DNA of 23,148 nucleotides from a virus: positions 1 through 23,148 of the IMG/VR virus record IMGVR_UViG_3300030060_002567, one strand, 5' to 3'. How positions within the stretch are numbered: the first letter of the stretch is position 1; every line of letters starts with the position of its first letter. The translations under genes and the position numbers were made by a program. The notes under the pieces were generated by a model. That model was not told the origin of the DNA. It was given only the letters and a program-made list of their open reading frames with translations, and did no database searches. Shown one piece after another: positions 7,807 to 11,870 of this stretch.

Positions 7807-8605
7807 AATATAAACTCTTTAAATCTATTATCTCGTAATTTTCTGCTGTAAAAGATTCTTTGTTACCACCTGGTTTTAACACATATAGTTTACCACTACC
7901 TGTATCTACAAATCCATCACCAGGTCCAAAATCTTCACTATCTGTAATATCTTCTCTATCTGCTCTAATTGTTAAATCTTTTTTACCAAAGTCTGTGCCT
8001 TCTATTTTAATTAAACCTTCGTCTTTTAATACATCGTATATTGCCTCTCCTTCAGTTCCACCTGTTCCTGCATAAAAAGTTTTAAACCTATCCATTATTT
8101 TTTGTTCTGTTGAAGCTCTAGTTATATCTCCTGCACTTCTACTATATTTTTTAAATGCTGCATTTCTACCTGCAGGAGTATCTGGAAACTCTCCAGCTTG
8201 AATAGATAAATCTATCATTTTTTCTACTGCAATTTTACTCTGACCTTTTCTAGATAATTGAGATCCTAGTGCTGTTGATACAGCTGCTTGTTCTCTTTTT
8301 TTAGCTGCCGCTCTTCTAACATCATCTCTTTTTATAAAATCTGCATAACCAACAGTTAATGCATCTTTTATAGGTGCACCACTAACTAAGGCAGCACCGA
8401 TTGAACCAAGTGGTAATCTTGTTTTTGGTATGGGTGATAATTCATTAAATATGTCTTGTATTGCTTTTGATTCTAATCTTGCTCTATCTACATCAAGACC
8501 AGTAGTGCCATTAGCTAATTGTTCTCTATCAGTAAGTCCAGACATGATACCATCATTAGTGGACCCACCTCTTCTAAACATAGGTCTTTTTAAAGTTCTA
8601 GACAT
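7805..8605 (-). CDS. Hypothetical virion protein with N-terminal MFRRGG motif
   Basis: 266 aa, ATG 8605-8603, one-base overlap (TAATG) with the preceding gene. GAGGAT lies about 8 nt upstream. The N-terminus is basic and glycine-containing (LKRPMFRRGGSTNDGIMSGL, residues 5-24). I recognise this as a recurrent opening of small structural proteins in uncultured marine phages, without a known function. Residues 25-150 are mostly helical and rich in Ala, Lys, Arg and Asp. Residues 200-266 look like short beta-strands rich in Gly and Asp, ending in EIIDLKSLY. There is no TM helix and no enzyme motif. It sits between the 386-aa and 1298-aa genes, so an internal-core or scaffold-like role is plausible. 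Gene certain, function unknown. Confidence 0.8.
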   Translation of the reverse strand: MSRTLKRPMFRRGGSTNDGIMSGLTDREQLANGTTGLDVDRARLESKAIQDIFNELSPIPKTRLPLGSIGAALVSGAPIKDALTVGYADFIKRDDVRRAAAKKREQAAVSTALGSQLSRKGQSKIAVEKMIDLSIQAGEFPDTPAGRNAAFKKYSRSAGDITRASTEQKIMDRFKTFYAGTGGTEGEAIYDVLKDEGLIKIEGTDFGKKDLTIRADREDITDSEDFGPGDGFVDTGSGKLYVLKPGGNKESFTAENYEIIDLKSLY

Positions 8606-9765
8606 TAATTTGATCCTCTAAATATTCTTCCGTATATATCAGCACCCATCAATCCAAAACCTAAAGCTTGTGATAATGGACTAGCCGCTGCTGCCATTGG
8701 TGTCTCTTGTAATGTTACACCTCCAGCGCCTGGTGTTATTGATGTGATACCAGTTCCTAATAATCCTAATCTTCTTCTTGGATCATCAACAGCCATTTGT
8801 GCTGCTTGTCTCTGTGCATCAAGTATTGCTTGGTTTTGTGCTTGTTGTGCTGCACCTAATGTACCAAGACCAGATATTTGTGCTCTACTAAAGTCTTGTG
8901 CTGCTGCACCCAATCCTCTTTGTTGATTAGCTATTGCTTGTTGGTTTGCTAAATCTTGTTGTCTTCTTGCAGCTGCATTTTGAAAACCTTGTTGTAATAA
9001 ATTAGCTTGTACTGCTGCCCGATTCCTGTCACTTGCTGCATCAAACTCTGCTATTTGCACACCTTCACGGCCACCACCAAATGCACCTGGTACACCAAGT
9101 GTAGCTGCTGCTTGTTGATTTTTTCTTATCTGAGCTTGTCTGTCAAACTCTGCTAGAGTTGTGTCAATAACTTGTTGTTGGTATGGTGATTGATATGATG
9201 CAATAGATCCTGCACCTGTGCCTGCACCAGTTCCAGTCAGTGCTGTTGCTGCATCTGCAGCTGTTGTAGCTTTTGTTAAAAATGGTTGAAACGATCCAAG
9301 ACCTGTTGTTGGATCTGTTGCTTGTGTATATGCCGCTGCTTGTAATGCATCTTGCGCTGCAACTTGTGGTGCAAGTTCAGCCATACCTGCTCTGGTAATA
9401 CCAAACTGTTGTGCTTGTGCTTGTCTTGCTGCAAATTGCTCTGCAGTCTCACCAGGTTGTTGTGTTGTTGCTGTTGTAACACTTGGTAATCCAGCTTGTC
9501 TTGTAAGATCTGCTAAAAATGTTTTCTGTGCTGCCTCAATAAACTCTGGTGGTAATTGTCTTGACTCTGTTATACCGCCTGTTTGTTTTGATACTCTACC
9601 ACCATCTGCCATAAACTTAGATCTTAATCTATCAATCTCTTCATCTAATAATTCTAATTCCGACTCTGTTAAATCTTTTAATTGTTTACCAAACATTTCC
9701 ATAGCCATGTCATTCTTCTCAGACATAGGATCTAGGTAACCAGCCATTTTCATTTCTTTGTCCAT
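8605..9765 (-). CDS. Hypothetical Ala/Gln-rich virion protein with DGGRV..QTGGI motif
   Basis: 386 aa, ATG 9765-9763, one-base overlap with the 701-aa gene's stop. Residues 15-50 are acidic and helical. Residues 53-65 read ADGGRVSKQTGGI, nearly matching a motif in the upstream 701-aa protein. QQPGETAEQ near residue 100 also has a counterpart there. Residues 105-340 are extremely rich in Ala and Gln with few charged residues, suggesting long helices or coiled coils as in internal-core or filament proteins. The C-terminus ends in a hydrophobic, glycine-rich LSQALGFGLMGADIYGRIF segment that could touch membrane or protein. Composition and position (before the 266- and 1298-aa genes) suggest an ejectosome or inner-core protein comparable in role to T7 gp14/gp15. 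This is inference; I see no diagnostic homology. Confidence 0.8.
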   Translation of the reverse strand: MDKEMKMAGYLDPMSEKNDMAMEMFGKQLKDLTESELELLDEEIDRLRSKFMADGGRVSKQTGGITESRQLPPEFIEAAQKTFLADLTRQAGLPSVTTATTQQPGETAEQFAARQAQAQQFGITRAGMAELAPQVAAQDALQAAAYTQATDPTTGLGSFQPFLTKATTAADAATALTGTGAGTGAGSIASYQSPYQQQVIDTTLAEFDRQAQIRKNQQAAATLGVPGAFGGGREGVQIAEFDAASDRNRAAVQANLLQQGFQNAAARRQQDLANQQAIANQQRGLGAAAQDFSRAQISGLGTLGAAQQAQNQAILDAQRQAAQMAVDDPRRRLGLLGTGITSITPGAGGVTLQETPMAAAASPLSQALGFGLMGADIYGRIFRGSN

Positions 9766-11870
9766 TATACTACTCTTTTCTCCAATCGTTTCATGGTATC
9801 ATACATCTTTTGTGCTCCTCTTTCAATGCTACCATTACCAGCTCCTCTTACAGCATCTGCTGTAAAAACAAACTCATTTTTTGATAGCATAGCAGGCACA
9901 TCGTCTGCTTTTTCTTTGATACCTACTGGTACAAAACCACCTGTTTCTCTGTAATCTCTCTCTTTGACTCCAGCTTTATTTGTTGTCATAATACCTGTTG
10001 GCATGCCGCCTGATGCTAGACCAAATATTCTTTGTTGAAGATCTGTATCACCTGACATTTGAGTTTTATAAAAATCTATCAATGCATCATCTACTGTGGT
10101 TCTATAAGGTTTTATTCCTTCTTTACCTAATATTGATTCTAATTCACCTAATTCATTTCTTAAATTATATCCTCTTAATTGACTAGATAATTGAAGAGGA
10201 TTTCCCTGCATATTAAATTGTTCCATATATTGTGGACCATATCTAAAAAATGGATCACCCCTTCCTATACGTCCTCTACTAAAATCTGGATTTTGAAAAT
10301 TTTGACCTTGAAGATATTTATTGTCTAATGCTAATTTTATTTCATCTGGATTTAAAGTTTTTAAATAATCTAAATCAAGTCCAGTTTTAAATTGATCTAA
10401 AAAATTTCTATTTGCTTCAGTATTATCCATTTGAAAAGTAGGTTCTATATCTTTTAAAATTCTTTGTATTATTGTTTCTCTTGATGGACCCGCAACATCT
10501 GCCATTGTTGGTCTACCTATACCAGCATCAGGTGTCTGGGTTGTTTCTGCTGCTTCGGCTGTTGATGGTGTTAGTAAATCGGAAACTTTAGCTTTAACAC
10601 CTCCTTGATTAACAAAATCTAATATAGCATTACCTGTGCTTCCTGTATCTTGATCAGGGGTAAAATCATATTTTAAATCAGTACGACCTTCAGGACTAAA
10701 TCCATATCTTCCTGCACTTCCTGCTAAAGCAAAATCAACAGGGTTACTTAAAGCTAATTTAGGTAAACCTCCTGTAAATCTTCCTCCAGAAGTTGCAACA
10801 GGTAAACCATAATCTTCATATCCAATACTTCCAGTAGGTCCTTTTGTAGCTTCTAATTCTTTCATTCTATCTCCCATAGAAGGTGTTCCTATAGGATCTT
10901 GTAAACCTAAAATACCTCTGCCTAAATTTATTGCAGGTGCAGCAACATTCATTAAAGTTTCTGCTACAGGAAAACTTCTTTTTAATTTTTCTACAATTCT
11001 TTGTCTACTTGGATTAATTGACTTTTGAAACGCATCTTGTGCAGCTCTATTACGTCTTATATTTTCTGCAAGTGTATTAGCTGAACTAATACCACCAGTT
11101 TGATATCCTACTCTACCACCATCACGAATATTGTATCTATCCACAAGTGCATTTTTACCTGCTTCGTCTAGTTTCATATATTCTGGATCATTTGCATAAT
11201 AATTATCCATGTAAACTCTCATTTGTTGTCCTACGTATTCTCTTCTTCTTTCCATATATTCTGCAGTAGTCTCACCAGGTTGTTGTTCTTCAAACTCTCC
11301 TTGAAAATAACTTGCTAATAAAGAGGCACCTGCCGTAATACCACCCGCTGTTAATTGTGCTACAACTCCATCTGGTAATTTTTTAATACCTGCTCTTATT
11401 ACATCTCTTGCAGTTGATATTAAACTTGGTTTATCACCAGCTATATCTCTCATGTTTGGTCTAGTAAATGTAGGATCTGCTGCTTGCTTGTCAAACAATC
11501 TACCAATAGGTCCCTGATCAAATCCAGCTTCTGTAAATTGTTGACGACCTAAAAATGTTTCTGGAGCTTGAGCTCCACCCAACATACCTACTCCTCTACC
11601 AAATGCATAAGTTCCAATACCTTGTTTAACTGCATCACTAAGACTACCTCTTTTATCAAATCTACCTATACCTCTCATTAAAGATGCAGTGCCTGGAAAA
11701 AAAGGTGCAACTAATGGTGCAGCTTTACTTGCTACACTTGCAAGTTCATTGGGTATAAGTTTTCTAATTCTATCTTTAATACCACCAAATAAATAATTAG
11801 TTCTTGGAACAACACTAGTTATTCCTCCTTTATTACGTAACTGTCGTGGCATTTGCATTCTTGTAATCAT
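9765..11870 (-). CDS. Large virion protein with C-terminal VPAMLSKNEFVF motif
   Basis: 701 aa. ATG 11870-11868 is used because an in-frame TAA lies 12 codons upstream; a start at Met5 is possible and neither has a good SD. The N-terminus is basic and glycine-containing. Residues 75-110 and 165-190 are Gly/Ala-rich and mildly hydrophobic. QQPGETTAE lies at 196-204, and RDGGRVGYQTGGI at 249-261 is a motif shared with the 386-aa protein. The middle is Pro/Gly/Asp-rich and probably extended. The last 60 residues carry ETGGFVPVG, DDVPAMLSKNEFVFTADAV, RGAGNG and GAQKMYD. I recognise that kind of ending in many phage structural and tape-measure-like proteins of marine phages. It follows the only real gap in the late block. 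Probably a core, tail-interior or ejection protein; exact role unknown. Confidence 0.8.
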   Translation of the reverse strand: MITRMQMPRQLRNKGGITSVVPRTNYLFGGIKDRIRKLIPNELASVASKAAPLVAPFFPGTASLMRGIGRFDKRGSLSDAVKQGIGTYAFGRGVGMLGGAQAPETFLGRQQFTEAGFDQGPIGRLFDKQAADPTFTRPNMRDIAGDKPSLISTARDVIRAGIKKLPDGVVAQLTAGGITAGASLLASYFQGEFEEQQPGETTAEYMERRREYVGQQMRVYMDNYYANDPEYMKLDEAGKNALVDRYNIRDGGRVGYQTGGISSANTLAENIRRNRAAQDAFQKSINPSRQRIVEKLKRSFPVAETLMNVAAPAINLGRGILGLQDPIGTPSMGDRMKELEATKGPTGSIGYEDYGLPVATSGGRFTGGLPKLALSNPVDFALAGSAGRYGFSPEGRTDLKYDFTPDQDTGSTGNAILDFVNQGGVKAKVSDLLTPSTAEAAETTQTPDAGIGRPTMADVAGPSRETIIQRILKDIEPTFQMDNTEANRNFLDQFKTGLDLDYLKTLNPDEIKLALDNKYLQGQNFQNPDFSRGRIGRGDPFFRYGPQYMEQFNMQGNPLQLSSQLRGYNLRNELGELESILGKEGIKPYRTTVDDALIDFYKTQMSGDTDLQQRIFGLASGGMPTGIMTTNKAGVKERDYRETGGFVPVGIKEKADDVPAMLSKNEFVFTADAVRGAGNGSIERGAQKMYDTMKRLEKRVV

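Follow-up and report, generated by a model that had tools for sequence, protein, structure and literature searches.

A short glycine-arginine motif at module seams in two neighbouring, probably ejection-type proteins of a pelagiphage-like virus

DNA ejection proteins of podoviruses (PHROG 4287) have functional analogues in gp14, gp15, and gp16 of T7 and in gp7, gp16, and gp20 of P22. Tape-measure proteins also act at DNA entry, and the glycine-rich C-terminal region of some of them is described by PHROG 5448 and related families. Modular mosaicism at conserved linkers in general is already known from phage tail fibres, whose domains swap at such linkers, including collagen-like repeats. Among head-packaged proteins, the T4 internal proteins carry an N-terminal capsid-targeting sequence that is cut by the gp21 protease.

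The window, by which we mean the whole 23,148-base virus record analysed here, represents one side of a podovirus-like genome. Its minus strand holds most of the genes, with tail and virion structural genes followed by p701, p386, p266, p1298, and p512, and a SNF2-type helicase is encoded on the plus strand beyond them. The cultured pelagiphage HTVC027P and phage 023Pt_psg01 have a matching gene order, short variants included; p701-p386-p266-p1298 correspond to gp82-85 of HTVC027P, in which the helicase is gp87. Comparisons drew on a set of about 130 relatives for both families, with about 115 distinct relatives of p701. The features considered below are as follows.

9765 to 11870, minus strand: p701, long form, a modular protein with an N-module, an inserted cassette region, and a tape-measure-like C-module (open reading frame, PHROG, and relatives)
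11115 to 11870, minus strand: p701 N-module, residues 1-252, ending ..YNIRDGG, conserved in short and long relatives
11259 to 11285, minus strand: QQPGETTAE (196-204), a helix start in the p701 N-module; the predicted helix 202-224 starts inside it
11088 to 11126, minus strand: p701 left seam motif RDGGRVGYQTGGI (249-261), with R[IVA]x[YF] associated with long forms and a predicted coil with pLDDT <50 at 250-265
10005 to 11114, minus strand: p701 inserted cassette region, residues 253-622, missing from short forms
9987 to 10019, minus strand: p701 right seam LASGG/MPTGIM (618-628; the slash marks the junction); short forms have GG/MPTGIM directly after the N-module, and pLDDT is <50 at 617-624
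9765 to 10004, minus strand: p701 C-module, residues 623-701, ..KADDVPAMLSKNEFVFTADAVRGAGNG.., present in HTVC027P gp82 (68% identity) and in roughly one in three motif proteins of the scan described below
8605 to 9765, minus strand: p386, DNA-ejection-protein-like (PHROG 4287, "DNA ejection protein," E = 2.4e-05)
9610 to 9765, minus strand: p386 N-terminal variable module, residues 1-52, different or missing in relatives, with two predicted helices and pLDDT across the block mostly 76-93
9571 to 9609, minus strand: p386 seam motif ADGGRVSKQTGGI (53-65), with a predicted coil with pLDDT <50 at 55-71; nucleotide alignments of 88-98% identity end here
8605 to 9570, minus strand: p386 constant body, residues 66-386, the start point of unextended relatives
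9436 to 9462, minus strand: QQPGETAEQ (102-110), a helix start in the p386 body; the predicted helix 108-131 starts inside it

Judged by its family, p386 is probably a DNA-ejection-protein-like protein: its match to PHROG 4287 spans residues 84-379, and 42 of 50 p386 relatives also match this profile (best, 6e-15). It differs from ejection proteins of the T7 and P22 type in having no sequence match to a solved structure (a search of the PDB by sequence found no relative) and in its variable N-terminal modules and glycine seam, which the papers that we found do not describe for such proteins. The AlphaFold models of p386 and p701 are weak (50 and 47 aligned sequences, pTM of 0.27 and 0.26, and mean pLDDT of 65 and 58.6, respectively), and structure comparison returned only uncharacterised viral proteins with poor superposition.

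The p701 C-module is weakly similar to the tape-measure C-terminal region, with a match to PHROG 5448 at residues 643-679 only (E = 0.0012). Unlike tape-measure proteins, p701 matches over no more than about 40-60 residues, lies in a podovirus-like gene set, lacks a long helical rod, and has exchangeable cassettes. We rejected p701 as a tail tape-measure protein by profile, since most of the protein falls outside the PHROG 5448 match, and as a tape-measure rod, the model (weak as it is) consisting of short helices and long low-confidence stretches.

As originally predicted from the sequence of the locus, p701 and p386 share a glycine motif, RDGGRVGYQTGGI at residues 249-261 of p701 and ADGGRVSKQTGGI at residues 53-65 of p386, and both carry a QQPGET-type motif, with the order of the two motifs reversed between the proteins. 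The recurrent form of the glycine motif is roughly A-x-G-G-R-[VIA]-G-[YF]-x-x-G-[GST], and HTVC027P gp82 carries the copies GGRIGFNSGT and GGRVNYAMGT. The shared motif is genuine, exceeding the expectation from within-protein shuffles hundreds-fold in both families: 53 copies against 0.055 in 64 non-redundant p386 relatives, and 84 against 0.145 in 79 p701 relatives. Rather than being equally frequent in non-virion proteins, an outcome that the original prediction had named as counting against it, the motif occurs nine times across the 442 other genes on these contigs, several of these occurrences falling in fragments or neighbours of p701 and p386 genes, and the neighbours of motif genes include portal, terminase, adaptor, and virion structural genes. 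Phage tape-measure proteins often have glycine-rich linkers, and the likeness might on that account be put down to chance or to plain shared descent of two meaningless low-complexity stretches; given the excess over shuffles, the rarity in other genes, and the strict association with inserts described below, this explanation is scarcely credible.

The original prediction had also treated the glycine and QQPGET motifs as a pair. Both are indeed conserved in both families, the QQPGET-type motifs with 49 and 36 copies observed where fewer than 0.4 are expected, but the latter are confined to the p701 and p386 families, and other proteins that have the glycine motif lack them. PGET stands at a helix start in both models (108-131 in p386 and 202-224 in p701), and QQPGET is therefore best read, as far as these models go, as a helix-capping sequence; with its limitation to two families, this position led us to reject the two motifs as one signal. 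Both copies of the glycine motif are modelled as coil with pLDDT <50 between predicted helices, in models that are weak overall.

The relatives of p701 fall into forms that differ at the glycine motif. Both flanks could be anchored in 55 of them, 31 short and 24 long. The short forms pass straight from the N-module into the C-module (..RYNVRDGG/MPTGIM..), with 3-4 residues separating the GG from the C-module, whereas the long forms, to which p701 of the window belongs, have 60-528 extra residues between the same two points. The insert opens with GGR[IVA]x[YF], in which x is nearly always Gly, in all 24 long forms and in none of the 31 short ones (under a looser anchor, R follows GG in 22/24 distinct sequences), and it ends at or near a second Gly seam ahead of the C-module. 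A segment 65% identical to p701 residues 387-622, within the insert, is found in a different protein in contig L095, where it ends ..FGLASGGRVGLNKGGLAPLLGE. Part of the insert in a p701 relative (L002:3654-5951, YTGTPSADKIAKEGFKAG...TTPNIDVAKTYG) resembles by eye an ADP-ribosyltransferase-type fold, with no Pfam match.

The motif occupies a corresponding position in p386, on the N-terminal side of the constant body. Unextended relatives (L082, L041, L043, L051, L054, and L060) start with MAITE[ST]R.LPPE and have no copy of the glycine motif. Extended relatives have many kinds of N-terminal module, often several in series, spaced by variants such as GGRVKYAEGT, and they enter the body via A-x-GGR-[VIA]-x-x-QTGG-ITES. 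Three contigs (L012, L023, and L129) have the p386 body preceded by modules of the p701-insert type (GGITMANTLxxN and downstream segments) and a p701 that is short or nearly short, and one cassette type can therefore occupy either of the adjacent genes. Length compensation, with a p701 insert making up for a missing p386 extension, was rejected, the two being uncorrelated (rho = -0.17, P = 0.17, 70 contigs). Many p386 cassettes open with Met (MKMAS or MASAP; L101, L120, and L138), as if modules had been added before older starts. Internal translation starts at the cassette MKMA/MASAP Mets were considered and rejected: Shine-Dalgarno-like sequences were found at 6 of 51 such Mets, compared with 34 of 583 Mets in the body and 5 of 109 genuine start codons. 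The cassettes gave no convincing match to Pfam (best E = 0.0057) and marginal matches only to PADLOC (best E = 0.0017).

Nucleotide comparisons place the break between constant and variable sequence at the motif. Pairs of contigs that are 88-98% identical on one side lose this identity there: L106 and L114 are 96.3% identical across 1,604 nt up to the p386 motif, and L091 and L093 are 96.0% identical across 1,335 nt up to it, with differing cassettes before the motif in each pair; L137 and L138 keep high identity across 1,076 nt and lose it at the motif, and other pairs behave likewise. In contigs retrieved by homology, 15.6% of alignment ends lie within 15 nt of a motif, compared with 5.6% for random positions, and among proteins collected by the motif alone, 22.8% lie within 5 amino acids, compared with 6.7%, the counts in both cases being redundant and mutually non-independent. 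The relatives thus have the arrangement of a modular mosaic, with variable modules on one side and constant sequence on the other. Conserved sequence beside variable sequence gives such ends whatever the cause, and we therefore take them to mark a seam and not as proof of recombination. High-identity alignment ends across the two genes were not found in the comparison of relatives.

These breaks could also be expected if the nucleotides were the conserved element, as a recombination signal or site-specific element of which the peptide is a by-product. The synonymous codons of the motif-core G, G, R, and Q, however, vary between relatives as much as they do elsewhere, and the motif Thr is encoded by ACT in p701 and by ACA in p386; it is therefore the peptide, not a DNA site, that is conserved. 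Codon constancy of the kind that such a signal calls for appears beside the core, on the body side of the p386 seam (residues 64-70, window 9556-9576), where relatives use almost the same synonymous codons for G64, T66, and S68 (mismatch of 0.00-0.10, compared with about 0.4 where these amino acids occur elsewhere). With a freely varying core and no recombinase-like family found in the cassettes, a DNA-level signal is highly improbable. The p701 and p386 copies of the motif resemble each other no more closely within a contig than between contigs (P = 0.62 for protein and 0.67 for DNA). Similarity within contigs equals that of permuted pairs, and we therefore rejected the idea that a genome copies its motif from one of the two genes to the other.

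A degenerate DNA pattern run against viral contigs gave at least 84 matches, and among the matches listed, 83 are in frame with the longest open reading frame. They fall in many unrelated protein families, in agreement with the expectation that marine phage proteins repeatedly carry glycine motifs of this sort. Among the 78 distinct motif proteins listed, 26 have the C-module signature under a strict pattern, 22 match a tape-measure PHROG (5448 or related), and two match an endolysin. The neighbours of listed motif genes that lack the C-module include portal (11/65), terminase, head-tail adaptor, and virion structural genes, portal-type genes being frequent; together with the annotated motif proteins, which among the matches listed are mostly tape-measure proteins, they bear out the proposed link to virion or internal proteins, as far as gene content can indicate it. 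Several smaller regularities accompany these matches. Several motif proteins end in GGLASIL or GG[LI]A.MLGE (L152:427-1581, L216:1221-3394, L173:6561-7499, and L206:9354-11423), and L216 has a period-8 run, GGRVGYFF-GGRVNYKA-GGRVSFKN-GGLASIL. Two small basic proteins of 86 amino acids (L169:2907-3164 and L205:2624-2881) have the motif before the C-terminus GCGKVMSNRRKVTKVY. The N-terminus of p266 (window 8550-8605) carries RPMFRRGG..GIMSGL, and a similar N-terminus is found in motif proteins of L184, L186, L193, L198, and L221 and in HTVC027P gp84.

Not every copy lies between modules. Among the matches listed, the motif is near the N-terminus in L172, L187, L197, and L226 and at the very C-terminus in L152, L173, and L216; in L187, L152, and L216, there is no module pair for it to join, which counts against a purely joining role. 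Such terminal copies would suit a docking or packaging peptide, bound by a conserved virion partner such as the portal or an internal core ring that brings the protein and its cassettes in. Docking would also accommodate the Arg, aliphatic, and aromatic positions kept among otherwise unrelated proteins, the presence of several copies per protein, and the portal and terminase genes that often adjoin. The 31 short p701 relatives and the unextended p386 relatives lack the motif, however, which is therefore not needed for their incorporation, and the two copies in one genome do not covary. We regard docking to the portal or core as the main rival, if an unlikely one. A broader version, in which GGR[VI]G[YF]xxG[GT] would be a common virion docking code across unrelated marine phage proteins and the modules coupled to it would be taken into the ejection apparatus as a cargo pool, is somewhat less probable still; were it true, these phages would maintain a set of interchangeable cargo modules for delivery into the host at entry.

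The original prediction also offered cleavage. Some viral proteases use double-glycine sites, and a cut after the second GG (QTGG/ITES) would free the modules and leave p386 with nearly the MAITES N-terminus of its unextended forms. HTVC027P has no maturation protease recognised by annotation, PHROGs, or Pfam, several head genes there being unassigned, gp56-58 among them; where its gp59 matches protease-capsid fusion profiles, it does so in their C-terminal (capsid) part alone. The residues after the GG are variable, a cut in p701 would part the N- and C-modules that are joined in short forms, and 31 relatives of p701 do without the motif altogether. Cleavage at the motif is thus less likely and unsupported, and we hold it to be very improbable.

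The reading that we favour, and judge on balance probable, is that the motif is a flexible, module-joining peptide seam in DNA-ejection proteins at which modules have repeatedly been swapped. A short, flexible Gly-Arg segment would couple modules of the ejection apparatus that fold independently and are mostly helical. Since similar encoded segments stand at either end of a module and in several genes, exchange nearby would keep the reading frame and break no fold, so that modules would be gained, lost, swapped, or shifted from p701 to p386 at the seam. We infer that p701 and p386 are virion components that exit together with the DNA, the segment perhaps serving as a hinge in assembly or in passage through the portal. 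Exchange may take place when partly similar DNAs recombine in co-infected cells, and selection from the host envelope or from entry defences may maintain the variation. The conserved Arg, aliphatic, and aromatic positions exceed what a passive linker needs, and it is therefore likely, judging from this conservation, that something also recognises the motif segment.

A peptide seam of this kind is like tail-fibre modularity in that variable domains are swapped at short, conserved, Gly-rich segments, and it differs in involving ejection-type proteins, a defined nine-residue Gly-Arg motif in place of Gly-X-Y repeats, and one cassette type in two adjacent genes. With the T4 internal proteins it has in common a short conserved segment alongside hypervariable parts of head-packaged proteins; the seams here, in contrast, lie inside the proteins, and no protease was recognised. 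A search that covered open-licence PMC text found no description of the motif, and a defined motif serving as a seam in ejection-type proteins, common to neighbouring genes and to many phage protein families, appears to be new as far as that literature goes.

Phage proteins that enter the host are usually seen as slow-changing machinery, and in these relatives of pelagiphages they appear instead to be mosaics with a coupling peptide. A metavirome study found hypervariable islands to include internal virion proteins, for a reason that it described as obscure (PMC3909814); exchange at the seam would explain that hypervariability. A recent study showed a host nuclease acting at phage tape-measure proteins as the DNA enters the cell (PMC13190303), which would give one testable reason to swap parts of proteins of this class. 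The motif may also serve as a sequence handle for entry-apparatus genes in unannotated marine phages.
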